Shown in pieces: positions 21,130 to 61,083 of a stretch of 64,000 nt of DNA (the stretch's first letter is position 1; every line of letters starts with the position of its first letter). The notes beneath the pieces are model-generated. The model did not search any database. It had not been told where the DNA came from and saw only the letters and a list, made by a program, of their open reading frames with translations. The DNA lies in assembly GCA_027482185.1 (NCBI GenBank), contig JAIXWF010000015.1, forward strand, positions 124,001-188,000, read 5' to 3'. The DNA comes from Opitutaceae bacterium (GTDB taxonomy: Bacteria; Verrucomicrobiota; Verrucomicrobiia; Opitutales; Opitutaceae). The position numbers were made by a program, and so were the translations under genes.

Positions 21130-22551
21130 ATGAACCACGACACCCGCTGGCTTGTCCGTCTCGGCATCGACCAAGGTCTGCTTACGCGGCCGCAGGCGCT
21201 GCAGATCCGCGCCACGGTCGGACCCGACGCCGACGTCGTCACCTATGCGCAGGAGATGATCGACAGCGGGATCGTGAAGGACGTGGAACTGCTCGAGCGC
21301 CTGGCCGAACTCGCGATCGCCAAGGCGGAAAAAGGCTCGCCGGCGAGCGACCCGTTCGAGACCGACGAATCCAGCGTGCCGTTTGTGCAGACCGGACCGG
21401 CCGGCAGCCGGGCCGCGCCCGGCGGCGGCGCCCCCGGCAAGCTGCCCGACTTCGATTTCGGTTCCGTCGCCGCGCTCGACGACGCGGCGCTCGCCGCCGG
21501 CGTGCGTTCCCTGCTGCGGGCCACCGCCGCCTCCGGCGCGAGCGACCTGCACCTCTCGACCGGGGCGCGGCCGTTCATCCGCCGGAACCGCGCCCTGTCC
21601 TACCTTTCGGACTACACGCTGACCGCCGCGGATGCGCTCCGGCTCAACACGGTGCTGCTGACGGATTCGCAACGCGCGGTCTTTCTCGAGCGCAAAGATT
21701 TCGACTACGCCTTGGCGCTGAGCGGCGAGGACCGCTACCGCGTCAACCTGATGTTCCACAAGAACGGCGCCGCCGGCGCCTACCGCATGGTGCCCGCGGA
21801 AACGCGCACGCTCGAGGCCCTCGGCTACACCAAGCACCTTGAGACGCTGAAGAAGATGCTGTCCTACCACAACGGGCTCATCCTCATCACCGGCCCGGTC
21901 GGCTCCGGCAAGACCACCACCCTCGCCTCGATGGTCGCCTACCTCAACGAGACCCGCAGCGACCACATCATCACGGTCGAGGATCCGATCGAGGTCGTGC
22001 AGCCGGCCAAGGGCTGCAACGTCACGCAACGCGAGGTCGGCCCGCATACCAAGTCGTTCTTCACCGCGCTGAAGGGCGCGCTGCGCGAGGACCCGGACGT
22101 GATCGTGATCGGCGAACTCCGCGATCTCGAGACGATCGAGATGGCGATCAGCGCTTCGGAAACCGGCCATCTGGTGATCGGCACGATGCACACGAGCGAT
22201 GCCGCCACGACGCTCAACCGCCTGCTCGACGTGTTTCCCCCGGCCCAGCAGACGCAGATCCGTTCCAGCGTCGCCGAATCGCTCCGCGGCATCGTGTGCC
22301 AGCGCCTGCTGCCCGGCATCGACGGCGGGCTCGTGCTCGCCTGCGAGATTCTCGTGAGCAACACCGCGATCCAAAACCTGATCCGCGAAGGCAAGACGGC
22401 CGGCCTGCGCAACACGATGGAGACCGGCGTGAAGGAAGGCATGTGCCTGATGGACAATGTCGTCTTCGGCCTCGGCCAGGAACGGAAGATCTCCGTCGCG
22501 ACCGCGCAGGCCAACATCACGAACCGCGTGCTCAAGGGCAAACTCGGCTGA
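21130..22551 (+). CDS. pilT: PilT-family type IV pilus retraction ATPase with N-terminal extension
   Basis: A 473-residue ATPase. The first 130 residues are an added domain (helical, WLVRLGIDQGLLTRPQALQI, recalling MshEN-type N-domains) plus a Gly/Pro-rich linker. The PilT core follows: ASDLHLSTGARPFIRRN near residue 140, Walker A GPVGSGKTTTLAS, Asp box HIITVEDPIEVVQP, Walker B DPDVIVIGELRDLETIEMAI, His box GHLVIGTMHTSDAATTLNR, and the C-terminal NTAIQNLIREGKT, close to the AIRNLIRE element of PilT. Family role: powers pilus depolymerisation and twitching. The extension makes it about 110 residues longer than normal. It is the first of three overlapping or adjacent co-directional genes. Confidence 0.9.
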   Translation: MNHDTRWLVRLGIDQGLLTRPQALQIRATVGPDADVVTYAQEMIDSGIVKDVELLERLAELAIAKAEKGSPASDPFETDESSVPFVQTGPAGSRAAPGGGAPGKLPDFDFGSVAALDDAALAAGVRSLLRATAASGASDLHLSTGARPFIRRNRALSYLSDYTLTAADALRLNTVLLTDSQRAVFLERKDFDYALALSGEDRYRVNLMFHKNGAAGAYRMVPAETRTLEALGYTKHLETLKKMLSYHNGLILITGPVGSGKTTTLASMVAYLNETRSDHIITVEDPIEVVQPAKGCNVTQREVGPHTKSFFTALKGALREDPDVIVIGELRDLETIEMAISASETGHLVIGTMHTSDAATTLNRLLDVFPPAQQTQIRSSVAESLRGIVCQRLLPGIDGGLVLACEILVSNTAIQNLIREGKTAGLRNTMETGVKEGMCLMDNVVFGLGQERKISVATAQANITNRVLKGKLG

Positions 22552-22556
22552 ACGCC

Positions 22557-22817
22557 ATGGCCGATCCCGACGACGATCTTCCGACCGCGGAGACCGAATA
22601 CCGCAAATCGCGGTTCACCGTGCTCTGCCACGTCGGCTTTCTCGTGGTCGCGCTCGTGATCGCGGTCGGCGTGCGCCGCGCCATCGGTCTGCCGCAGCAG
22701 ATGCTCGGCGTGGTGATCATCGTCGCGCTGCTCGTCTTCGGCCGCGACATCATGCGTTTCATGCATCTCCGTTCGAAAGTCGCCCGGCTCCGCGCCGCGG
22801 CGGAAAAAGCCTCCTGA
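22557..22817 (+). CDS. small two-helix membrane protein between the pilT genes
   Basis: An 86-residue protein with two hydrophobic segments: FTVLCHVGFLVVALVIAVGV (about residues 20-39) and MLGVVIIVALLVFGRDIMRF (about 49-68). The N-terminus is acidic (MADPDDDLPTAETEY) and the C-terminus basic and helical (RSKVARLRAAAEKAS), so both ends are probably cytoplasmic. I do not recognise a family. It starts five bases after the stop of the upstream pilT and ends two bases before the ATG of the downstream pilT, so the three are surely co-transcribed. Inference: a membrane partner or regulator of the retraction motors. Confidence 0.7.
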   Translation: MADPDDDLPTAETEYRKSRFTVLCHVGFLVVALVIAVGVRRAIGLPQQMLGVVIIVALLVFGRDIMRFMHLRSKVARLRAAAEKAS

Positions 22818-22819
22818 CC

Positions 22820-23896
22820 ATGGCCGCCATCGACGCCCTCCTCAAAACGATGCTCGAACGCGGGGGTTCCGACCTCCACCTGACGGTCGGCCTGCCGCCG
22901 AAGTCCCGCATCTCGGGATCGCTCCAGCCCATCGCCGATACGCCGCTCGACGCGCGCACGATGGAGAGCCTGCTGAAAGAAATCTGCCCCGAAAAGCGCT
23001 GGCTCGATTTCCTCGAGCGCAAGGACCTCGACCTCGCGCACGAGATTCCCGGCGTCGCCCGCTTCCGCGGCAACTACCTTTGCAACCACTGGGGCCAGGC
23101 CGCGGTGTTCCGCCAGATTCCCGCGAAGATCATGTCGTTCGAGGACCTCAAGCTGCCCGAGGCCCTCAAGAAACTCTGCCACCTCGACCAGGGCCTCGTC
23201 GTGGTTACCGGTCCCACCGGCTCCGGCAAGTCGACCACGCTCGCGGCGATGATCGACTACATCAACTCGAACCTCGCCCGCCACATCATCACCATCGAGG
23301 ACCCGATCGAGTTCGTCCACCCGGTGAAGAAATCGGTGATCGTCCACCGCGAGGTCGGCGAGCACACCTCGTCGTTTGCCGCCGCGCTCAAGGGCGCGAT
23401 GCGCCACGACCCCGACATCCTCCTGCTCGGCGAAATGCGCGAAATGGAAACCATCAAGCTCGCCCTCGGCTGCGCCTCCATGGGCATGCTCGTCTTCGGC
23501 ACGCTGCACACCAACAACGCCCCCAAGACCGTCGACCGCATCATCAACACCTTTCCCGCCGACGAACAGAACCAGGTCCGCGTCATGCTTTCGAGCTGCC
23601 TCGCCGGCGTCGTCGCCCAGCTCCTGTGCAAACGCGTCCCCAAGGGCCGCTGCGCCGTGCACGAAATCCTCCTTACCCACGAGGCGCTGCCCAACACAAT
23701 CCGCAGCGGCCAGATCGCCAACATCAAGTCGATCATCGAGAGCGGCGGCGCCGACGGCATGATCACGATGGACAACAGTCTCATGAACCGCGTGAAGGAC
23801 GGCACCATCGAGCCGAAGGAGGCCTACATGAAAGCCGCCAACAAGGCCACGTTCGCGCCGCTGCTGAAACCGGGCGATCTCGACGGCGGCCATTGA
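22820..23896 (+). CDS. second PilT/PilU-like retraction ATPase
   Basis: A 358-residue ATPase of usual PilT length. Features: GGSDLHLTVGLPPKSRISG near residue 16, Walker A GPTGSGKSTTLAA, Asp box HIITIEDPIEFVHP, a Walker B with LLLGEMREMETIKLAL, His box MLVFGTLHTNNAPKTVDRI, and LPNTIRSGQIANIKSIIESG near the end. The last element and the GEMREMET Walker B are more PilU/PilT2-like than classical PilT. By family knowledge, PilU works with PilT to raise retraction force. The ATG was chosen because it immediately follows the preceding TGA (two bases apart) and begins the conserved N-terminal helix; the longer open frame is a shadow. The tail extends about 15 residues past the conserved core. Confidence 0.9.
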   Translation: MAAIDALLKTMLERGGSDLHLTVGLPPKSRISGSLQPIADTPLDARTMESLLKEICPEKRWLDFLERKDLDLAHEIPGVARFRGNYLCNHWGQAAVFRQIPAKIMSFEDLKLPEALKKLCHLDQGLVVVTGPTGSGKSTTLAAMIDYINSNLARHIITIEDPIEFVHPVKKSVIVHREVGEHTSSFAAALKGAMRHDPDILLLGEMREMETIKLALGCASMGMLVFGTLHTNNAPKTVDRIINTFPADEQNQVRVMLSSCLAGVVAQLLCKRVPKGRCAVHEILLTHEALPNTIRSGQIANIKSIIESGGADGMITMDNSLMNRVKDGTIEPKEAYMKAANKATFAPLLKPGDLDGGH

Positions 23897-30841: not shown

Positions 30842-31180
30842 ATGTCGCAATGCCCCCCGCCCACCCCGGAACTTACGGAGCTGGCGGCCGTTCTGGGCGA
30901 GGAAAACGTGCAGACCTTGGTACGCACCTTCCTGCGCGATTTCCCGATCTCCTTCCAGGAACTGGGCGGCGGCGAGCGCAAGAATCGGCATCGGCTGGCC
31001 CACAGCATGAAGAGCAATGCCCGCCTGATGGGCGCACACGCCCTCTCTCAGCGCATGGCCGAGCTCGAGAACCGGCTTTCCGTCGAAAACGGGCAGGACG
31101 TCACGCCCCAAGACCTAACCGCCATCGGCCAAGAGTTCGAGGCCGTGGCCGGCCCGCTGCGGATCTTCGTCGGCCAGTAG
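30842..31180 (+). CDS. HPt phosphotransfer domain protein
   Basis: A 112-residue single-domain histidine phosphotransfer protein. It forms the HPt four-helix pattern, with the phospho-accepting His in HRLAHSMKSNARLMGAHAL (H-x-x-K-S-N-A-x-x-x-G) near residue 55, followed by LSQRMAELENRL. HPt proteins shuttle phosphate between receiver domains and hybrid kinases. It has no kinase beside it; possible partners are the receivers encoded at 31193, 32027 and 56013 or the hybrid kinase near 57415. It follows the M14 gene after 115 bp and is convergent with the NarL-type regulator gene, with 12 bp between the stop codons. Confidence 0.88.
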   Translation: MSQCPPPTPELTELAAVLGEENVQTLVRTFLRDFPISFQELGGGERKNRHRLAHSMKSNARLMGAHALSQRMAELENRLSVENGQDVTPQDLTAIGQEFEAVAGPLRIFVGQ

Positions 31181-32026: not shown

Positions 32027-33508
32027 ATGAGCAACGCCCCTTCCGGTTCCGGCAAAGCCCACGTGCTCGTGGTCGAAGACTCCTCGGTCTTCCGCGAGAT
32101 GCAGGGCCTGCTCCTCCGTCAGGCGGGCTACGAAGTCTCGCTGCACGAGACTCCGCAGGGTGCGCTGACCGCCGCGACCAAGCAGGTCTTCGACCTCGTG
32201 GTGATCGACTACGAACTGCCGGAAATGAACGGCCAGCAATTCATGCACGGCCTGCGCAAGCTGCAGCCGGACATCGCCGTCGTCTTCGTTTCCGGCGCCC
32301 TCACGCTCGAACTCGCCATCCAGCTCAGCAGCCAGGGTGTCGCCGGCATCTTCAACAAGCCCGCCAATCCGAAGGTCCTCCTCGAGAAGATCAACGAGAC
32401 CCTGGCCCGCAACGCCGTCCGCGACACCGCCGCGCGCATGGGTTCCAACTCCCCGATCGCGCCGCGGCGCAATGCCGCCGGCGGCGACGCGGCCGCCGGG
32501 GCCGAGCCCACGGCCGACCGGCTCGCGTACACGCCGCGCTTTCTGCTCGGGCAATCCGACGTGTTCCGCGAGTTCTCGCACCGCCTCTGGAAAGTGCGGG
32601 ATTTCCGCGCCGCCCTGCTGCTCCACGGCGAAGCCGGCAGTCCCTTCGAGGCGATCGCGCGCGATCTCGCCGAGATTTCCATTTTCCGCGACGGGCCCGT
32701 CATGCTCTGCCGCGGCGCCGATTTCGAAACCCGCGCGCTCATCGAGGTCCTCGCCCCGTCTCTCCTCTCCCATGATGCCGGCACGCTCGTCGTGACCGGA
32801 GTCGAAAAATTCACCGCGGCCCAGCAAAAGACCTTGGAAAACCTGATGACGGGCCGGGATGTCTTCCTGCCCTTCGCCCGGCGTTTCCGCATCGTGCTCG
32901 CCGCCACGAACGAACTCTCGGACCGCGTCGACGACGGCTCCTTCAACGAAACCCTGTACTACAAGATCAGCGCGCTTTCGCTCCTCGTGCCGACTCTGCG
33001 AGAAATGCGCGCGGACATCGTCACCAACGGACTCCGCATCCTCGCCGGCCACGTCGAGTCCGGAAATTCCGGCGGACCGCTGGCCTTCACGGCCGATGCC
33101 GCTGCCTGGCTCGAAGCCCGGGACTGGCCGGGCAATTTCGACCAACTCACGCGGACGTTGCTCGCCGCCGCAAAGCACCAGGCCTCCGGCGATGCGCTCA
33201 CCGTGGCGGCCCTCGAACAGGCCGCCCGCGAGATCGCGAAAGCGACCGTCTCGCGCGGCACTCCCCCGCCTGCACCCGCGCCGCTTCGGCCTGCCGCCGA
33301 GCCAGCGCCCACCGCGGAAGCCCGGCCGCCCTTCCCGATCACCAGCGCCCTCGCCGCGGAAGCCAAGCCGTCTGCCGCTCCGGCTGCGCCCCCCGCCCCG
33401 AAGGTTCTGACGGCGCAAAGCATCTTCCGTCCGGCTTCGGCCGCCTTCAATTTCACGGCCCGCCTCTCGGACGCGTTGGCCGCCGCGACCCCGAAATCTC
33501 CGGCCTGA
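32027..33508 (+). CDS. response regulator fused to a degenerate NtrC-like AAA+ domain
   Basis: A 493-residue protein. The receiver (about 10-130) has VLVVEDSS, phospho-acceptor Asp in LVVIDYELPEMNGQQ and FNKPANP at the Lys position. The central domain (about 168-405) follows the order of a sigma-54 activator but has lost its active sites: where GETGTGKE is expected there is HGEAGSPFEAIARD, where Walker B LDEI is expected there is GTLVVTGVEKFTAAQQ, and no GAFTGA loop is present. The sensor region FRIVLAATNELSDRVDDGSF and the late WLEARDWPGNFDQLTRTLLA (normal: W-P-G-N-V-R-E-L) are still recognisable. The C-terminus is Pro/Ala-rich with no helix-turn-helix. It heads the co-directional cluster to 35751. 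Probably a phosphorylation-controlled scaffold; function unknown. Confidence 0.85.
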   Translation: MSNAPSGSGKAHVLVVEDSSVFREMQGLLLRQAGYEVSLHETPQGALTAATKQVFDLVVIDYELPEMNGQQFMHGLRKLQPDIAVVFVSGALTLELAIQLSSQGVAGIFNKPANPKVLLEKINETLARNAVRDTAARMGSNSPIAPRRNAAGGDAAAGAEPTADRLAYTPRFLLGQSDVFREFSHRLWKVRDFRAALLLHGEAGSPFEAIARDLAEISIFRDGPVMLCRGADFETRALIEVLAPSLLSHDAGTLVVTGVEKFTAAQQKTLENLMTGRDVFLPFARRFRIVLAATNELSDRVDDGSFNETLYYKISALSLLVPTLREMRADIVTNGLRILAGHVESGNSGGPLAFTADAAAWLEARDWPGNFDQLTRTLLAAAKHQASGDALTVAALEQAAREIAKATVSRGTPPPAPAPLRPAAEPAPTAEARPPFPITSALAAEAKPSAAPAAPPAPKVLTAQSIFRPASAAFNFTARLSDALAAATPKSPA

Positions 33509-33599
33509 CCGGCCCCCATCTGGGGCCCGGTTGTGCAATCCCCTTGTCTCAAGGCAGGTTCCGGCCTCAGTATCGCGATCGTTCGCCTCCTCCTGTCGC

Positions 33600-34244
33600 A
33601 TGTCGCTCCGCTCGGCCAAACCCTCCGACCTGTTTTCGCGTCATCCCTTGTTTCAAGGAGATGCGTCAACCGGCGGAATTCGGCGGACCGACGGCACCCG
33701 GGTTGCGCCGTTCTCCGGCGAGCTGCTCCACGCCCTCCATGTCGCGCTCATCGAGCACGCGGCGGACTTCGCCCAGGACGCTCTCTACCGCAGCGGCTAC
33801 GAGTGGGCCCTGCAGGAAATGATCCAGGTAAACACCCGGCTGCAATCGAAGCCCAATGGCACTAAGCAGCCGATCTGGCAGACCGACGTACCGGCCGCCT
33901 TGGAGCTTTGGTGGACGGGATTTGCCGATGCCGGCTGGGGATCGTGCACCTTCGATTTCGCCGGATTCGAGAAAGGCATCGTGCTCGCCGAGGTGAAAAA
34001 CAGCGCCTTGGCGGCCGCCTTGGCCGGGGCGGAACAGCCCATGTGCCACCTGTACGCCGGGCTGTTCGCCGGCGCGATGAGCTTTCGCCAACGCGCCGAA
34101 CGCCATGCGGTCGAACTGCAATGCGCGGCCCTCGGCGAGCCGTCCTGCCTTTTCCTGATCGGTCCCGGCGAAACGATCGATCGGGCGGAAGCTTGGCGCC
34201 AACAGGGTATCGCTGCCGCCGAAATCGTCCGGCAGCTCCGCTGA
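33600..34244 (+). CDS. V4R-like (4-vinyl reductase fold) domain protein A
   Basis: A 214-residue protein. The C-terminal two-thirds resembles the V4R/XylR-N sensory fold: an aromatic strand pair AALELWWTGFADAGWGSCTF, then PMCHLYAGLFAGAMSFRQRA with the G-x-x-x-G-x-x-x helix, and AVELQCAALGEPSCLFLIGP with the E-x-x-C-x-x-x-G-x-x-x-C-x-F pattern typical of V4R ends. In DmpR/XylR that fold binds aromatics and controls a linked AAA+ domain; in other proteins it binds small molecules or zinc. The match is by pattern only. The gene is 91 bp downstream of the degenerate AAA+ gene and seven bases upstream of the next ORF. The ATG at 33600 is preferred over an upstream frame that lacks homology. Confidence 0.65.
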   Translation: MSLRSAKPSDLFSRHPLFQGDASTGGIRRTDGTRVAPFSGELLHALHVALIEHAADFAQDALYRSGYEWALQEMIQVNTRLQSKPNGTKQPIWQTDVPAALELWWTGFADAGWGSCTFDFAGFEKGIVLAEVKNSALAAALAGAEQPMCHLYAGLFAGAMSFRQRAERHAVELQCAALGEPSCLFLIGPGETIDRAEAWRQQGIAAAEIVRQLR

Positions 34245-34251
34245 TTTTCCG

Positions 34252-34467
34252 ATGACCCCGTGGAAATCGCACCACTACGCGCGCGCCGAGGAATTTGTCC
34301 GGCTCGTTGCCTCGGCCCTCGCCCAGAGCGGCGGTTCCTCCACTCCGTTCGCGCCGCCGCCCCCTTCCGCTTCGGTCCCGCCGTTTCCCGTGCCCGCTCC
34401 GGTCGCCGCTCCGGCCAAGCCGGTCACCGCCGCCGCGATGTTCAAGAGCATCCCGTGGAAGAAATGA
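34252..34467 (+). CDS. 71-residue proline-rich protein with terminal short motif
   Basis: A small protein not matching any family I know. Residues 1-26 (MTPWKSHHYARAEEFVRLVA) form a plausible amphipathic helix, 28-57 are almost purely Pro/Ala/Val, and the last residues are VTAAAMFKSIPWKK. A similar terminal pattern, KVLTAQSIFRPAS, follows a Pro/Ala linker in the degenerate AAA+ protein of the same cluster. It starts seven bases after the previous stop and ends 11 bases before the next ATG, so it is almost certainly translated within the cluster. Its layout suggests a linker or docking protein. Confidence 0.6.
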   Translation: MTPWKSHHYARAEEFVRLVASALAQSGGSSTPFAPPPPSASVPPFPVPAPVAAPAKPVTAAAMFKSIPWKK

Positions 34468-34478
34468 ACTGAACGGCC

Positions 34479-35126
34479 ATGTCCGACCCGACCCAAACCC
34501 TTTCCGCCCTCGGTCTCGGCCACATCGTGGCCGAGAAGGGCTTCAAGCGCGAAGGCCAGGGCGCTTTCGCAGATCCAGCGGGCAACCGCATCGCGTTCGC
34601 CAGTCCCCAGACCCTCCGCAGCTTCCGGCTCGTCCTCGACGGCGAGCGGCCCGGACTTTGGCGCACGCTCCAGAAAGCCGCCGGCCATGCCTGCGGCGGC
34701 AAGATCGCCCGCGACCTCGACGCCCGCCTCGCGGCGGAACAGCAGCCCGCCCTCGCCTCGCTCCCGCTCGAAGCCTGCCTCGGCTTCCTCGAGCACCACT
34801 TCTCGTCCCATGGCTGGGGCCTGTTGTCCGTCGATCTGACCCATGCCGCGGAACACGGCCTCGTGGTTGCGCGCCTGAGCTACAGCTGCTTCGCCGAGGC
34901 GGATCCGGAAGGGTCCGACTTCGCCGATCCGCTCGTGGCCGGAATGCTGCAGGGGTTCTTCGAGCACATCAGCGGCCAGTCCCTCGGCTGCGAGGAAATC
35001 GCCTGCGTGCGCCGCGGCAGCGCGCAATGCGAGTTCGTCATCACCGCCCCGGAGCGGCTCGCAACCGTCATGCCGTACCTGGGCCGCGAGCCCGCGGTGA
35101 AGGTGATCACGCGGCTTTGCGTCTGA
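34479..35126 (+). CDS. V4R-like domain protein B
   Basis: A 215-residue protein that looks like a divergent paralogue of the protein encoded at 33600. The N-terminal part (about 1-90) is mixed alpha/beta (FRLVLDGERPGLWRTLQKAA). The second part reads GWGLLSVDLTHAAEHGLVVA, then DPLVAGMLQGFFEHISGQSL, GCEEIACVRRGSAQCEFVIT, which is the V4R-type ending: strand, helix with small residues, then E-x-x-C-x-x-x-G-x-x-x-C-x-F. The two cysteines at that site are conserved in both cluster proteins and suggest a metal or ligand site. It lies between the 71-residue protein gene and the last gene of the cluster, with gaps of 11 and seven bases. Confidence 0.65.
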   Translation: MSDPTQTLSALGLGHIVAEKGFKREGQGAFADPAGNRIAFASPQTLRSFRLVLDGERPGLWRTLQKAAGHACGGKIARDLDARLAAEQQPALASLPLEACLGFLEHHFSSHGWGLLSVDLTHAAEHGLVVARLSYSCFAEADPEGSDFADPLVAGMLQGFFEHISGQSLGCEEIACVRRGSAQCEFVITAPERLATVMPYLGREPAVKVITRLCV

Positions 35127-35133
35127 CCGGCCC

Positions 35134-35751
35134 ATGGCCAAGCCCCAGCTCACCTGCCTTTTTTGCACGAGCGTCACCGCTCCGCGGCTGCTCTGCAGCC
35201 CGGCCGGACGCGACCTCGGCGGCGATCTGCTGGTCGATTGCGGACTCGCTCCGGCCTTCGCCCCCGTGCTCGAACTCGACCTGCCCGCCGGGTTCCCCGG
35301 GATCGCCGGCCTGTTCGGCGGCCGCACCCTCGGCGAACTGGTCCGGACGAGTCCGCGCCTGCCCGTGCCGATTCTGCCCGCCGCCGCGCTGCCATCGGCC
35401 GCCGCCCCGGTGCGCTCCGCGCTGCAGCTGCTGCCGCAATGCGAAGCCGGCTTCGCCCGCATAACCTTGCTCGTCCCGCTGGCGGACGCCCGCGCGCTTG
35501 GCGCGGCCCTCGCCGTCGCGCACCGCTATGCGATCGCGTGGGACATCTCCGAACCGCCGCACGCGGAGCTCGCCGACTTCGCCCGCTGGCTCGCCGAGGA
35601 AAACCTCGCCGACCGTTCCTCCTTCGCCGGTCTCTTTCCCTATGCCGGCCGCGCCATCGAAGACGCCCACCGCCACCGGCTCGAGCCGACCCTGGCGCCC
35701 CTCGCGCAAGTCGGACGCTCCCCGCTGAACGTGATCACGATCGGCGGCTAG
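35134..35751 (+). CDS. unknown protein, possibly a degenerate MinD/ParA-like fold
   Basis: A 205-residue protein not confidently recognised. The layout DLGGDLLVDCGLAPAFAPVL, GIAGLFGGRTLGELVRTSPR, LPVPILPA resembles the part of MinD/FlhG-type ATPases where an Asp-rich strand precedes a target-binding loop and the L-P-A-G turn. The start, however, lacks the deviant Walker A lysine (it reads CSPAGRDLGGD), so it would not bind ATP in the usual way. Later segments ITLLVPLADARALGAALAVA and SPLNVITIGG look like parallel strands. It is the last of five co-directional genes and its 3' end overlaps the convergent gene by 17 bases. It could instead be an unrelated alpha/beta protein. Confidence 0.55.
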   Translation: MAKPQLTCLFCTSVTAPRLLCSPAGRDLGGDLLVDCGLAPAFAPVLELDLPAGFPGIAGLFGGRTLGELVRTSPRLPVPILPAAALPSAAAPVRSALQLLPQCEAGFARITLLVPLADARALGAALAVAHRYAIAWDISEPPHAELADFARWLAEENLADRSSFAGLFPYAGRAIEDAHRHRLEPTLAPLAQVGRSPLNVITIGG

Positions 35752-56012: not shown

Positions 56013-56618
56013 TCACGGGTTCGCGCGCGGCCCCGGCGGATCGCCCGGCGGCATGCCGCTCAGGAAGCGCTCGAGTTCGGGCACGGTGATCTTCTCGTAG
56101 CATTCCGGGCAGATGCCGTGGCTGAAACGCGTGCCGGTGCGGGCATTCAGGTAGCTCTCGATCTGCTGCCAGTAATTCCGGTCGTCGCGGATTTTTTTGC
56201 AGTGCGCGCAGATCGGCAAAAAGCCCTCGAGCTGCCGCACCTGGGAATTGAGCCCAAGCACCCGTTCGGCGGCGTGCAAGCGCAGCTTCAGGTCGCGGAT
56301 ATTGACGGGCTTCGTCAGGAAATCGTCGACCCCGGCCTCGATCGCCGCGTCGATGTTGACCTCGCTCGCCGACAGCTGGGTGAGCAAAATGAAGCTAACG
56401 TAATCGCCGCCCCGGCCCCGGATGAGTCGGCAGAGATCGAGTCCGTCGAGCTCGGGCAGCCGCCAGTCGCTCACGACCACGCGGATCGCCCGGTCGGCCA
56501 GCAGATCCCACGCGCGCCGGCCGTCGACCGCCAGCAGCACCTCGTGGCCGAGCGATTTCAGCGCCGACTCGATCACGAGTTGCGCCACCGGATCGTCCTC
56601 GACCGCCAGGATCTTCAT
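56013..56618 (-). CDS. response regulator with C-terminal zinc-ribbon-like domain
   Basis: A 201-residue protein. Receiver at 1-120: ILAVEDD, phospho-acceptor Asp in VVVSDWRLPELDGLD, FILLTQLSA, and DFLTKPVN at the Lys. After a helical linker (LNSQVRQLEGFLPI) comes CAHCKKIRDDRNYWQQIESY and SHGICPECYEKITVPELERF, two CxxC pairs in a well-known but functionally obscure appendage of receiver and PAS proteins. It lacks a DNA-binding or output enzyme domain, so the zinc module is the likely output or contact surface. It is divergent from the LuxR-type regulator gene with 139 bp between starts, and near the hybrid kinase gene. Confidence 0.88.
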   Translation of the reverse strand: MKILAVEDDPVAQLVIESALKSLGHEVLLAVDGRRAWDLLADRAIRVVVSDWRLPELDGLDLCRLIRGRGGDYVSFILLTQLSASEVNIDAAIEAGVDDFLTKPVNIRDLKLRLHAAERVLGLNSQVRQLEGFLPICAHCKKIRDDRNYWQQIESYLNARTGTRFSHGICPECYEKITVPELERFLSGMPPGDPPGPRANP

Positions 56619-56757
56619 GCCCGCAACTGCACCCCGCCGGCCCGGGAAGGCAACCGGGGAATGCGGGCCGCGCCGGATCGCCGTATCCGGCCGCAGCGTA
56701 CAACTCCGGCCGGGAGGCGCGGCTTGCGTTTCCCGCAGCGCCGTCGCACAACGGGCA

Positions 56758-57387
56758 ATGCCCCTCAAGCTGGTCATCGTCGACGATCACAAGATTATCC
56801 GCGACGGCCTGCGGGTGCTGATCCAGCGGGAGCCCGACCTCGAAGTGGTCGGCGAGGCTTCGGACGGGCGGACCGGCGTCGCCGAAATCATGCGGCTCGC
56901 GCCCGGCGTCGTCCTCCTCGACATGGCCATGCCCGAGCTCAACGGCATCGAAGCGGCCCGCCAACTGCGGGCCAAGGGCTACACCGGCGGCATCGTGATG
57001 CTCTCCATGCACAGCGAACGCCGCACCGTGAACCAGGCCCGCTCCGCCGGCGTCGACGCGTACGTGCTCAAGGAATACGCCTTCGAGCAGGTGCGCGCGG
57101 CGATCGCGGCCGCGGCCCGGCGCGAGACGTGGTTCAGCCCGCAGCTTTCCGATCCGCTTTCGGGCGAGGAACAGCTTTCCCCGATCGACCAACTGCTGAC
57201 GCCGCGCGAACGCGAGGTCCTGCAGATGCTCGCCGAAGGCCGCGGCGCGAAGGAAATCGCTTTCCGGCTCGGCATCAGCCCGCGCACCGTCGAGGTGCAC
57301 CGCGCGAACATGATGGGCAAGCTCAAGGTCGACAACGTCGTCGATCTCACGCGCATCGCGGTCCGCGAGGGCCTGGCGACGCTCTGA
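56758..57387 (+). CDS. NarL/LuxR-family response regulator, second copy
   Basis: A 209-residue regulator. Receiver at about 1-120: LVIVDDH, phospho-acceptor Asp in VVLLDMAMPELNGIE, IVMLSMHSE and YVLKEYAFE. LuxR-type helix-turn-helix at about 142-205: LTPREREVLQMLAEGRGAKE, IAFRLGISPRTVEVHRANMM. It probably takes phosphate from the hybrid kinase whose gene ends 28 bp away on the opposite strand, although the hybrid has its own receiver and may pass phosphate through an HPt protein such as the one encoded at 30842. The ATG at 56758 matches the receiver start. Confidence 0.92.
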   Translation: MPLKLVIVDDHKIIRDGLRVLIQREPDLEVVGEASDGRTGVAEIMRLAPGVVLLDMAMPELNGIEAARQLRAKGYTGGIVMLSMHSERRTVNQARSAGVDAYVLKEYAFEQVRAAIAAAARRETWFSPQLSDPLSGEEQLSPIDQLLTPREREVLQMLAEGRGAKEIAFRLGISPRTVEVHRANMMGKLKVDNVVDLTRIAVREGLATL

Positions 57388-57414
57388 GCCGCCGGCACGC
57401 CGCCCGGTCCCGGG

Positions 57415-60400
57415 CTAACCGGCCACCCGGTCGGCCGCCGCCAGCACACGGCCGACCGCGGCCAGCAATTGGTCGGCCTCGAAGGGTTTCTCGATCAGCG
57501 CGACGGTCGCATCGGCGGCGAACGCGGTCAGGTTGAAGCGTCCCGGATCCCCCGTCGCAAGCACCACGGGCAGTCCCGGGCGCAACTCGCGCAGGCGGCC
57601 GAGGAGTTCGATGCCGGAGATCTCCGGCATCGCCAGATCGAGCACCGCTGCGCCGTAGTGTTGCGGCCGGGCGACGAAGGCGGCGAGGGCGTCGGCCGGG
57701 CGCTGGAAATAGTCGGCGTCCTGGCGCGCGCCGCGCAGCACGAGGCGGATGACCTCGCCCACGACTTTCTCGTCGTCGACCACCAGCACGGCCCGGCCGG
57801 ACCGCGGGGCCGCCGCCGCTTCCGGCGGCCGGGCCGACGGGGCCAGCGGCAGCCGGATTTCGAACGTGGAGCCGAGTTGCGGGGCGCTCCGGACGGTGAC
57901 GGTGCCGCCGTGCTCCTTCACGATGCCCTGCACGATCGAGAGCCCGAGTCCGGTGCCTTCGCTCCGCGACTTGGTCGTGAAAAACGGCTCGAACACGCGC
58001 GCCGCCGTGGCGGCGTCCATGCCGCAGCCGTCGTCCTGCACCGCGAGCACCGCGCGGCCGCCTCCGGTGTCGTCGCGCGCGAGCGCGACGAAAATCTCGC
58101 CCGGCCGGCGCCCGATCGCGTGCGCGGCGTTGACGCAGAGATTGGTCAGCACCTGCTGCAACTGGCCGAAATCGCCGACAACCGGCACCGCTTCGGGCGG
58201 CAGCCCGAGGCGCAACGCGATGTTGCTCCCGATGGCCGCGGTGACGAGCGACGCGGTATCCTTCACGACCTCGCGCAGGTCGAGCACGGCGGGGGCGGTC
58301 TGCAGTTCGCGCCGCGAATACTGCATCAGGCGTTTGACGAGCTCCCGGGCCCGGTCGCTGCCCCGGCGCGCGGCGTCCACGGATTCGAGCGCGGGATGCC
58401 CCGGCGGCAGCGTGTGCGCAACCATCGAGATGTGCCCGGCGATTCCGGTCAGGATGTTGCCGAAATCGTGCGCGATGCCGCCGGCGAGCGTGCCGAGCGT
58501 TTCCAGTTTCTGGCTCTGCAGCAGTTGCCGGACGAGGTGCAGGCGTTCTTCCTCCGCCGTTTTTTCGGCCGCGATTTCCTGCGTCGTGCCCATCATCTGG
58601 AGCGGCTGGCCACCGGGGCCGCGGGCCGTGACGTGCCCCACTTGGCGCACCCATCGCCACGTGCCGTCGGCCGCCAGCAGCCGATGGTCGCACCGCCACT
58701 CCGCCTCGCGTCCTTCCAGGACGGAATGGAGCGAGGAACTGGTCCGCTCGCGGTCATCCGGATGGGTTTTCTCCAGCCAGGTCCCATCGGTCGCCCCGAC
58801 CAAGTCTTCCGCCCGAAAGCCCAGAATGCACGGTGCCCCGCAGGCCGTCACCCGGAACACACCCCGGTCCAGATTCCATTCCCACCAAACGAGGCGGGCG
58901 GTTTCGAGGGCCATGCGCAGCCGGGTCGTGGTCCGGTGCACTTCCGTCTCGGCGGCGACGCGCTCGGTCAGGTCGGTGAAACTCGCGACCACTTCGCGGC
59001 CGCCGTCGGCATTCGCCAGCGGGTTCGTGTACACCTTCAGCCAAATGCGTTTCCCGTCCGCCCGCTCCATCCCCAGACGCTCCGCGCGGCGCGGCTGCCC
59101 GGTCCGGAGCGTGACGGCGACCGGATACTCCGTCGGCGGCATTTCCGTTCCGTCCTCGCGCCACACCCGGAGGCGGGCGCTGAAAATCGAACGCCCGATC
59201 ATCGCCCCGCGTTCCAACGCCAGCATTTCCTCGGCCGCCCGGTTGTTGACCCGCACCCGGCCGTCGGACCCGAAGACCGCGATGCCCTCCGCCACGGTCT
59301 CGAACACGGACAAAAGATAATTCCGGTCCCGCTCGGCGTTGCGCTCCGCCTCGACGTATCGGGTGACGTCGATGTTCACCCCGGTCACCCACTCGGGCCG
59401 GCCCGCGGCGTCGGGCGTGACAAACCCCTGGGACTCGATGTGGCGGATCGATCCGTCCGGCCGGACAATCCGAAAGCCGATCTGGAAATCGCGCGCCCCA
59501 CCCCGCACCCGGACGGAAAGGTCGGCCAGCCGCGAGCAATCGTCCGGATGCAGGACGGCGCGGTTGAAGACCTCGGATGTCGGGATCTCGGATATGCCGT
59601 AGATTTCGAACATCCGGGCGTCCCATTCCGTCTCGGCGGTGATCAGGTTGCGCCGCCAGTAGCCCAAACGCGACGCCCGCAGGGCCAAGGCGAGTTTCTC
59701 GGCCGCAGACCGTTGCTCGGTCTCGCGGCGCCGTTCCTCGGTGATGTCGCGGTTCAGGCCCACGGCCCGGTCCGGCCGGCCGTCGGGGTGGCGCTCCACG
59801 ATCCCGCTGCCCGAAATCAGGCGCACTTCGTCGCCGCGCCGAATCCGGAATTCGACCCCGAAGACGGGTTCGTCCGCCGACAGGACGTTTTCGAACGCCG
59901 CCTGCACCATCGCCCGATCCTCAGGCAGAATCGAACGCTGCCAATCCGGCACGGTCCCGAGGAACTCCTCCGGTTTCCGGCCGTAGATGTCGTGCATGCG
60001 CGCGTCCCAAGTCAGCCGCTGGGTCGCAAAGTCGAACTCCCACACGCCGTCCCCGCGGCTCTCGACCGCCAGCCGGACCCGGTCGTTCATCCGGACCAGT
60101 TTCTGTTCGGCTTCGCGCCGCCGGGTGACATCCATCATCACGCCGCGCAGCCAACGCCCGCCGGCCGCTTCCCGCACGACCTTGACGGAGTCCCGGATCC
60201 ACACGACGCGGCCGTCCGCCGCGAGCATCCGGTATTCCATTTCGTGGTCCTCGCCCCGCGCCGTGGCGGCGACACAGGATTCCACGGCCAGGGCGCGGTC
60301 CTCGGGATGGATGTGCTCCGCCCAGAAGTCGGGTTCGTGGCACCAGCGTTCGACGGGATAGCCCAGCACCGCCTCCGCCGCCCGGCTCACATACGTGAAA

Positions 60401-61083
60401 CGGAAGGTTACCGGATCCGCTTCCCACACGATGCCCGGCATCGTCGCGATCAAATCGACGAGCCGCCGGTGCGTCACTGCCAGTTCCTGTTCGGTCCGGC
60501 GACGCGCCGTGACATCGAGTTCCACCGCGACGAACCGCTGGACCTCGCCCTTGGCATCCCGGACCGGCCGGCAGTCGATCGCGACCCAATAGGGGCTGCG
60601 GTCTTTGCGGTAATTCAGCACCTCGACGTTGAAGCCTTCGCCGCGACGCACCGCGTTCCGCATCTCCGCGGCCACCGCCGGGTCCGTGGCGGGACCGTGC
60701 AGAAAGTCCGCGGGCCGGCGGCCGATAACCTCCGTGGCCGGGTAGCCCGACAGCCGCGTGAAAGCGTCGTTGACCCAAGTGATCGCTCCCTGCGCATCGG
60801 AAACGACCACGACGTTCGCCGCAAATTGCGCCGCCGTGGCCAATTGGCCGTCATCCGCCAACGCCACCGGCGTTGCATCCGCTTTTTGGGGTTCGGGCTG
60901 GGACACAGGGATGAGGGAAGCGCCGATCGAACTTCGCCGGGAATCGAACCGTCGAGGAGCCGCGCTTTCGCGGGGGAAAACAATCCCGCCGGCAACCCGA
61001 CTGCGAGCCAATCCCGCCGCGTTCGCAAATTCTGCGCAGGCAATCCGAGCCCGCGAAGACCCGACAGATCCGATCCGGCCCAT
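57415..61083 (-). CDS. hybrid sensor histidine kinase with six PAS domains
   Basis: Up to 1,222 residues. Six PAS domains at about 85-195, 205-325, 330-450, 455-575, 580-700 and 705-830 (e.g. FAANVVVVSDAQGAITWVND; LVWWEWNLDRGVFRV), with PAC-like ends. Then HisKA with the phospho-His in TLAGGIAHDFGNILTGIAGH, HATPase with LTNLCVNAAHAIGRRPG, VQDDGCGMDA, VFEPFFTTKSR and GTGLGLSIVQGI, and a C-terminal receiver with VLVVDDEK and AVLDLAMPEISGIELL. No transmembrane segment is evident, so it is probably a cytosolic sensor of redox, light or small ligands. The first ~60 residues look non-coding-like (Arg/Ser-rich); a GTG at 60906 may be the true start, giving 1,163 residues. Confidence 0.9.
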   Translation of the reverse strand: MGRIGSVGSSRARIACAEFANAAGLARSRVAGGIVFPRESAAPRRFDSRRSSIGASLIPVSQPEPQKADATPVALADDGQLATAAQFAANVVVVSDAQGAITWVNDAFTRLSGYPATEVIGRRPADFLHGPATDPAVAAEMRNAVRRGEGFNVEVLNYRKDRSPYWVAIDCRPVRDAKGEVQRFVAVELDVTARRRTEQELAVTHRRLVDLIATMPGIVWEADPVTFRFTYVSRAAEAVLGYPVERWCHEPDFWAEHIHPEDRALAVESCVAATARGEDHEMEYRMLAADGRVVWIRDSVKVVREAAGGRWLRGVMMDVTRRREAEQKLVRMNDRVRLAVESRGDGVWEFDFATQRLTWDARMHDIYGRKPEEFLGTVPDWQRSILPEDRAMVQAAFENVLSADEPVFGVEFRIRRGDEVRLISGSGIVERHPDGRPDRAVGLNRDITEERRRETEQRSAAEKLALALRASRLGYWRRNLITAETEWDARMFEIYGISEIPTSEVFNRAVLHPDDCSRLADLSVRVRGGARDFQIGFRIVRPDGSIRHIESQGFVTPDAAGRPEWVTGVNIDVTRYVEAERNAERDRNYLLSVFETVAEGIAVFGSDGRVRVNNRAAEEMLALERGAMIGRSIFSARLRVWREDGTEMPPTEYPVAVTLRTGQPRRAERLGMERADGKRIWLKVYTNPLANADGGREVVASFTDLTERVAAETEVHRTTTRLRMALETARLVWWEWNLDRGVFRVTACGAPCILGFRAEDLVGATDGTWLEKTHPDDRERTSSSLHSVLEGREAEWRCDHRLLAADGTWRWVRQVGHVTARGPGGQPLQMMGTTQEIAAEKTAEEERLHLVRQLLQSQKLETLGTLAGGIAHDFGNILTGIAGHISMVAHTLPPGHPALESVDAARRGSDRARELVKRLMQYSRRELQTAPAVLDLREVVKDTASLVTAAIGSNIALRLGLPPEAVPVVGDFGQLQQVLTNLCVNAAHAIGRRPGEIFVALARDDTGGGRAVLAVQDDGCGMDAATAARVFEPFFTTKSRSEGTGLGLSIVQGIVKEHGGTVTVRSAPQLGSTFEIRLPLAPSARPPEAAAAPRSGRAVLVVDDEKVVGEVIRLVLRGARQDADYFQRPADALAAFVARPQHYGAAVLDLAMPEISGIELLGRLRELRPGLPVVLATGDPGRFNLTAFAADATVALIEKPFEADQLLAAVGRVLAAADRVAG

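Follow-up and report, generated by a model that had tools for sequence, protein, structure and literature searches.

Five adjacent genes in the genome of an Opitutaceae bacterium raise the question of whether they constitute a new signalling system, as proposed in an original prediction made from the DNA sequence, or descend from a system already described. The genes lie in a stretch of 64,000 nucleotides (assembly GCA_027482185.1, contig JAIXWF010000015.1, positions 124,001 to 188,000), hereafter the window, where they span positions 32027-35751, all on the plus strand and separated by 91, 7, 11 and 7 nt, in agreement with the co-directional arrangement first described. Their products are a fusion of a receiver with an NtrC-type AAA+ domain (RR-AAA), a V4R protein (V4R-A), a proline-rich motif protein, a second V4R protein (V4R-B) and a MinD-like protein. 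The cassette derives from the V4R/BBAG bilin cluster, in a reduced form without bilin genes, and is not the wholly new system originally envisaged, since its V4R proteins belong to clades A and B of that cluster.

Relationship of the cassette to bilin gene clusters

A Pfam scan assigned a receiver (3e-20) and a Sigma54_activ_2 domain (1.9e-15) to RR-AAA and V4R domains to both V4R proteins (1.5e-12 and 4.4e-9, both over the cut-off), results which confirmed the predicted domains in a profile search. No family was found for the 71-residue or the 205-residue protein, and none of the five proteins gave a helix-turn-helix (HTH) match, consistent with the earlier claim that the cassette contains no DNA-binding domain.

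The V4R sequences, 154 rows in a tree rooted at the midpoint, separated into clade A (80 rows) and clade B (74 rows) with support of 100/99, and the window contains one protein of each; the clade names were transferred by way of cluster gene order, the sequences of Rockwell et al. 2023 themselves being outside the tree. Clade A sequences from Opitutaceae (20 rows, 100/100) are sister to those of the same-order genome G044 and 11 proteobacterial rows, and the clade B sequences (19 rows, 100/100) fall among proteobacterial and G044 rows. The V4R-A alignment was used to scan the species genomes of GTDB, where two peptide patterns gave 145 relatives, and 80 of these were kept as loci for comparison: 21 from Opitutae, 11 proteobacterial (Methylococcaceae, Thiomargarita, Lysobacterales, Comamonadaceae and others), one from Sericytochromatia and 47 cyanobacterial.

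The neighbourhoods of the V4R-A relatives are the BBAG/pre-PcyA cluster, for which the main text of Rockwell, Martin and Lagarias 2023 (PMC10151467) lists an Fe-S protein, two V4R proteins (clades A and B), the BBAG globin, a ferredoxin-dependent bilin reductase (FDBR) and often a heme oxygenase, cyanobacterial clusters such as slr0144-slr0149 of Synechocystis being described there as without FDBR and heme oxygenase. Pfam matches in the relatives were to ferredoxin (PF00111, L063), globin (PF00502, L031, L063 and L128), FDBR (PF05996, L064 and L073), heme oxygenase (PF01126, L064) and kinase (PF00069, L031). The full order of ferredoxin, V4R-A, motif protein, globin, V4R-B, kinase and MinD-like protein is present in eight of the 11 proteobacterial loci; L062, L066 and L068, the remaining three, run into contig ends. 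Two genomes of the same family as the window (G226, locus L127; G227, locus L128) also contain the complete cluster from ferredoxin to MinD-like protein, with FDBR; there it ends in receiver proteins with a weak match to the RR-AAA profile in their second half (whole protein E ~1e-14). The cluster of G044 (L031) ends in its own receiver-AAA gene, likewise without Walker motifs as read from the sequence; FDBR lies on a separate contig of this genome, and the retrieved stretch showed no ferredoxin.

The cassette shares with these clusters the V4R pair of clades A and B in the same order and a motif protein between them, in what we take to be the position of slr0145; the MinD-like protein is shared with the proteobacterial and Opitutales versions, in which it is conserved. 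The cassette differs in having no Fe-S protein, BBAG, FDBR or kinase, nor heme oxygenase in the window's 6.4-Mb genome (G000), and in the addition of a receiver-pseudo-AAA protein with a conserved tail. Ferredoxin, globin and kinase were each found in none of the 20 named reduced loci, and no Fe-S protein was found beside V4R-A. Neither the phycobilisome family with the bilin globin (PF00502) nor bilin reductase (PF05996) was found in any of 27 congeneric genomes, both being detected in the cyanobacterial positive control, and PF01126 heme oxygenase was not found in G000. FDBR was present in 8/8 genomes with the full cluster versus 0/3 with the reduced one. Several of the genomes examined for these genes are incomplete drafts. 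The derivation is established by the V4R clades, the gene order, the motif protein and the MinD-like protein, together with the pigment genes not being found.

No paper on the cassette was found among the top results of searches of the open-licence literature, and the terms Verrucomicrob, Opitut, slr0145 and slr0146 do not occur in the main text of PMC10151467, while its figures or supporting information may draw the motif and MinD-like genes. L127 and L128 are complete bilin clusters in Verrucomicrobiota, a phylum that is not named in the same main text. Several bilin clusters open with a very large protein of 1200-1750 residues (L031:17-5272, L065:5596-9444, L127:11393-15001) that matched no Pfam family over the cut-off and gave one weak phycobilisome match (0.05); it is followed in Opitutales by a helix-hairpin-helix (HHH_3) protein (L031:5993-6700, L128:11027-11704). 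A dual-specificity phosphatase-like gene (L064:15560-16087; E 5e-7, below the cut-off) lies after the MinD-like gene in a Methylomonas cluster, where it adjoins the Ser/Thr kinase gene.

Properties of the cassette proteins

RR-AAA comprises an intact receiver, an AAA+ domain without Walker motifs and a proline-rich tail with a conserved end element. Alignments with PDB structures revealed GEAGSPFE at the position of Walker A, where NtrC-family structures have GESGTGKE, and the acid pair of Walker B is gone, the sequence reading TLVVTG; GAFTGA is also absent. Across 30 related rows, which represent 20 named loci with 10 of these entered twice, no row contained a Walker A or Walker B motif (the frame-broken L049 row has no letters at Walker A), and the predicted loss of both motifs thus withstood realignment. 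The acidic pocket, Asp, Ser and Lys of the receiver are kept in all rows with letters there, part of L049 being missing. The tail element, which in the window reads SIFRPASAAFNFTARL, follows a variable proline-rich linker in 30/30 rows, always as xFRxxxxx[YF]xFxxRL and mostly with FRPAS. Its conservation is confined to the Opitutaceae rows, with no such tail seen in the receiver-AAA protein of G044, and it is probably a binding element. RR-AAA and V4R-A are each split into two frames in the metagenome-assembled genome of L049 (L049:8765-10741), the result of either assembly error or decay.

V4R-A matched MopR at E 1e-4 with the cysteines aligned. The Pfam match of V4R-B covered 37 residues only; a structure model (pLDDT 85.5) has the full V4R domain and was matched by Foldseek to MopR (E 7.5e-8), then PoxR, DmpR, MJ1460, TRAPP Bet3 and BcsD (E 6e-4). 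The zinc ligands of DmpR are reported as Cys151, Glu172, Cys177 and Cys185 (PMC7264223). Cys149, Cys175 and Cys183 of V4R-A have the DmpR spacing of 26 and 8, and Glu172 is also present, although its location three residues before Cys175 matches a Glu of MopR and not the spacing given in that text for DmpR Glu172. Conservation of Cys149/Glu172/Cys175/Cys183 in 80/80 clade A rows is consistent with a DmpR-like metal site in V4R-A. The corresponding site in V4R-B is possibly Asp150/Glu173/Cys176/Cys184; the clade B positions are Asp/Glu/Cys/Cys in 19/19 Opitutaceae rows, with Gln for Glu in 43/43 cyanobacterial rows and a mixture in 10 proteobacterial rows.

The 205-residue protein has no PDB relative at the sequence level, the fold being visible in the model only. 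The AlphaFold2 model, built from a 20-row alignment (pLDDT 87.1, pTM 0.86), gave 104 Foldseek matches at E <= 1e-3, including ParA/Soj (best E 5e-7), MinD, FleN and BcsQ, and also matched the FleQ-FleN complex 8p53. The P-loop KGGxGKT is absent from the alignment, and both parts of the prediction, the MinD-like fold and the missing P-loop, were upheld. The protein thus shares the modelled fold of the MinD/ParA ATPases without their P-loop and is a predicted pseudo-NTPase of that fold. An open reading frame of L073 with a KGGAGLS P-loop was considered as an ancestor of the family and was unsupported (hhalign probability 0.3).

The motif protein, originally described as linker-like, is proline-rich and has a linker; the conserved ends and the pairing with the MinD-like protein had been overlooked. 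It consists of an N-terminal WKSHHYARAEEFVRLVA element, a variable linker and a C-terminal FKSIPWKK. HYxRA at the N-terminus and IPWKK at the extreme C-terminus are kept in all 12 sequences compared (11 named reduced loci and the window), and the motif proteins of L128 and L031 share M1, H8, R11, F15 and the PW end. The amphipathic moment of the N-terminus is unremarkable, since 10% of shuffles reach the same value. In bilin clusters the motif protein that directly follows V4R-A has one to six copies of FFxx[ILVMF][PDNSE]W, with up to six in proteobacteria. The strict motif was present in 35 of 1349 open reading frames from 66 loci (shuffled mean 0.4), and 34 of the 35 lie directly after V4R-A; a looser motif was found after V4R-A in 10/11 proteobacterial, 1/1 Sericytochromatia, 30/47 cyanobacterial and 12/21 Opitutae loci. 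The proline-rich protein is, as judged from sequence, the equivalent of these FFxxLPW proteins.

Nine reduced loci have no proline-rich gene, with 9-65 nt between the V4R genes versus 231-317 nt otherwise. The MinD-like gene is missing from the same nine and present in nine of the other 11; the remaining two (L044, L059) are cut off by the end of a contig, and their genomes have a MinD-like match elsewhere (G003, with one internal stop, and G004). The two genes were therefore both present or both absent in 19/19 reduced loci that could be judged, the window included. The presence of each changes six times on the tree, and the three supported independent contrasts all agree. The proposition that absence of the proline-rich protein means absence of its motif was ruled out by L054 and L058, where IPWKK is located at the end of V4R-A. 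This finding and the joint loss suggest that the C-terminal motif of the proline-rich protein serves V4R-A and that the N-terminal element serves the MinD-like protein.

Proposed function and alternatives

The pigment genes are absent but the protein framework persists, coupled to a two-component regulator, and this suggests that it serves a function in its own right. Relatives of the slr0144 cluster core make and bind bilins in non-photosynthetic bacteria, and a natural version without a detected bilin gene points to those components whose function needs no pigment. The motif and MinD-like proteins, which the texts available on the cluster do not discuss, become candidate partners with a short peptide motif.

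It is proposed, at about even confidence, that the cassette is a scaffold of V4R proteins, a proline-rich tether and a MinD-like protein that is run by a phosphorylatable pseudo-ATPase and derived from the bilin cluster. Inside the cell it would most likely act as both scaffold and switch. The core would be formed by V4R-A and V4R-B, probably as a heterodimer; judged from the DmpR-type site, it would hold a structural metal and might bind a small hydrophobic ligand as well. The joint loss and the IPWKK end of V4R-A in two loci point to a two-ended tether, of which the N-terminal element would dock on the MinD-like pseudo-NTPase and the C-terminal IPWKK on the V4R core. RR-AAA may be a phosphorylation-gated platform in which the intact receiver alters the oligomeric state of the dead AAA+ domain; the latter would then gather or release the V4R scaffold, either by means of its conserved tail or by contacts with V4R proteins. 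The output would then be through protein contacts and not through ATP hydrolysis or DNA binding.

A broader version, tentative and rather doubtful, is that the V4R pair, an FFxxLPW/IPWKK thread protein and a MinD-like pseudo-NTPase form a scaffold of general occurrence in bacteria, equivalent to BcsD/BcsP/BcsQ but unconnected with cellulose. Multivalent motif proteins would string V4R units together and the bilin globin would be a sensor cargo; the cyanobacterial role in photosystem assembly would be a later use, and Opitutaceae would have kept the bare scaffold, driven by a phosphorylated dead AAA+ protein. BcsD-BcsP(BcsH)-BcsQ is described as a cellulose scaffold (PMC11470070) and shares with the cassette a protein of V4R-like fold, a proline-rich partner and a MinD-family protein, the proline-rich protein being linked with the MinD-like one; it differs in that the MinD-like protein of the cassette has no P-loop. 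The parallel is an analogy of fold (the BcsD match of V4R-B) and composition. No cellulose synthase was found over the curated cut-off in the 27 congeneric genomes, with one weaker match in G010.

Several findings weigh against the bilin-cluster derivation or the scaffold drawn from it. The MinD-like protein was detected in none of the 47 cyanobacterial loci, and a motif protein was not seen beside V4R-A in 17 of them. The V4R tree is midpoint-rooted with long Opitutaceae stems, and the tree software flagged adjoining long branches. Heme oxygenase was found in two of the 27 congeneric genomes, G001 without the cassette and G025 with it, and the order of gene loss is inferred. The joint-loss contrasts are few and not significant (sign test p 0.25). 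IPWKK is not present at all in L043, L045, L047, L050, L060 and L061, six of the nine loci without the proline-rich gene, and L049, another of the nine, has only a degenerate LFKKTPAKK; the motif is thus dispensable in some cases. The Pfam match to Cellsynth_D (PF03500) was below the cut-off at E 0.084, and no BcsD was identified by sequence. The V4R heterodimer, the docking of two peptide ends and the gated pseudo-AAA platform are likewise inferred, the interactions being predicted only.

The original prediction had viewed the V4R and AAA+ domains as split out of DmpR/XylR regulators. As a function, a split regulator of this type, in which ligand-bound V4R proteins control the AAA+ protein in trans and the dead AAA+ acts on an active enhancer-binding protein through mixed oligomers, is unlikely. 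The adjacency of the two domain types, the MopR match of V4R-A with the DmpR cysteine spacing and the fact that RR-AAA is the sole gene beyond the V4R pair kept in 20/20 reduced loci are in its favour, and the sigma-54 activators DmpR, MopR and PoxR indeed share with the cassette the V4R fold, the cysteine spacing of 26 and 8 and an AAA+ domain of the same superfamily. However, the V4R proteins are far closer to the bilin-cluster clades than to DmpR, and the retrieved stretches of the proteobacterial and cyanobacterial clusters yielded no AAA+ protein of this kind. In contrast to DmpR/XylR, the V4R and AAA+ domains are in separate proteins, the V4R proteins are of another clade, and the AAA+ domain is dead with no GAFTGA or HTH; Walker A, Walker B and GAFTGA also distinguish NtrC-type sigma-54 activators from RR-AAA. 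An origin from DmpR was rejected by the V4R tree, which places both proteins in clades A and B of the bilin clusters.

V4R proteins of the slr0144/BchJ type have been proposed as carriers or insertion chaperones. A role in the handling of tetrapyrroles or other cofactors, with the V4R pair as carrier or insertion chaperone and the MinD-like protein and RR-AAA helping to assemble a client complex, is quite unlikely here. The ancestral cluster handles bilins, and the cyanobacterial slr0144-slr0152 region reportedly influences the assembly of photosystems, perhaps through slr0150-slr0152, with the role of its V4R proteins described as little known (PMC10151467, PMC13326532). The host, however, has no detected bilin reductase, phycobilisome protein or PF01126 heme oxygenase. 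Still less probable is a FleQ-FleN-like pair in which the NtrC-like AAA+ protein is under direct control of the MinD-like protein, a reading prompted by the Foldseek matches to FleN and 8p53 and by the shared combination of an NtrC-like AAA+ and a MinD-like protein. Both ATPases of the cassette are dead, unlike those of FleQ-FleN, and occurrence does not pair them: the proteobacterial MinD-like protein has no RR-AAA detected nearby, RR-AAA is present without the MinD-like protein in 9/20 Opitutae loci, and the MinD-like protein tracks the proline-rich protein instead. That the cassette is a decaying, functionless leftover of the bilin cluster is highly improbable since, despite its patchy occurrence (11/27 congeneric genomes) with clean empty sites, the repeated loss of accessory genes and the broken frames in L049, all five genes have dN/dS of 0.07-0.24 and the receiver sites, metal site and IPWKK end are kept across loci.

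Gene layout, distribution and chromosomal site

The coordinates are listed in Table 1. The ratio of nonsynonymous to synonymous substitution rates (dN/dS) relative to the nearest relative, G006, was 0.116 for RR-AAA, 0.106 for V4R-A, 0.236 for the proline-rich gene, 0.073 for V4R-B and 0.172 for the MinD-like gene. All five genes are thus under purifying selection and are not chance open reading frames. A scan for promoters and terminators revealed no promoters and two terminator-like sites, fewer than the shuffled mean of 3.4.

Table 1. Genes of the cassette and adjacent context genes in the window.
Feature	Position	Strand	Evidence
RR-AAA (receiver + NtrC-type AAA+)	32027..33508	+	Pfam, 30-row alignment, PDB alignments
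V4R-A (clade A)	33600..34244	+	Pfam, tree, MopR match, metal-site alignment
Proline-rich motif protein, 71 residues	34252..34467	+	Motif counts, locus comparison, alignment of ends
V4R-B (clade B)	34479..35126	+	Pfam, tree, predicted model and Foldseek
Predicted MinD/ParA-fold protein without P-loop, 205 residues	35134..35751	+	Alignment, model, Foldseek, occurrence
Hpt protein (context, outside cassette)	30842..31180	+	Pfam 1.2e-8
NarL/FixJ-type response regulator (context), divergent from RR-AAA	31193..31837	-	Pfam

The relatives searched comprised 57 genomes, 27 of them congeneric, and a sample of 200 genomes across the family. V4R-A was found in 12/57 relatives (11 of the 27 congeneric genomes and G044) and in 17/200 of the family sample, RR-AAA (E <= 1e-30) in 11/57, all congeneric, and the MinD-like protein in 8/57. 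The expected co-occurrence of the five genes held for RR-AAA (20/20 named reduced loci), V4R-A (20/20) and V4R-B (19/20, L059 ending at a contig edge), and in about half of the loci for the proline-rich and MinD-like genes: nine loci have all five genes, nine lack both of these and two are cut by contig ends. The order is Hpt, RR-AAA, V4R-A, (proline-rich), V4R-B, (MinD-like), with Hpt first in 20/20.

The corresponding site in the cassette-less congeneric genome L124 reads GNAT, Hpt, NarL, gene193, gntR. L121 and L122 are the same up to gene193, where their contigs end; L123 has no Hpt and retains NarL alone, and L125 has Hpt, NarL and gntR with gene193 and GNAT missing. None of the five cassette genes is present at these sites. 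Hpt occurs in 23/27 and NarL in 25/27 congeneric genomes, with or without the cassette, and the cassette therefore occupies a fixed chromosomal place beside Hpt and NarL as older neighbours. The proposal that Hpt, NarL and RR-AAA form a phosphorelay as one unit is weakened because Hpt and NarL adjoin without the cassette in L121, L122, L124 and L125.

Another two-component group, composed of a multi-PAS hybrid histidine kinase, a NarL-type regulator and a lone receiver, is located 20 kb away (56013-60906). Upstream in the window (21130-23896) are two PilB/PilT-like ATPases of the T2SSE family that flank a small protein, and T2SSE-like genes are also near the cassette in the relatives L021, L023, L026, L027 and L030.

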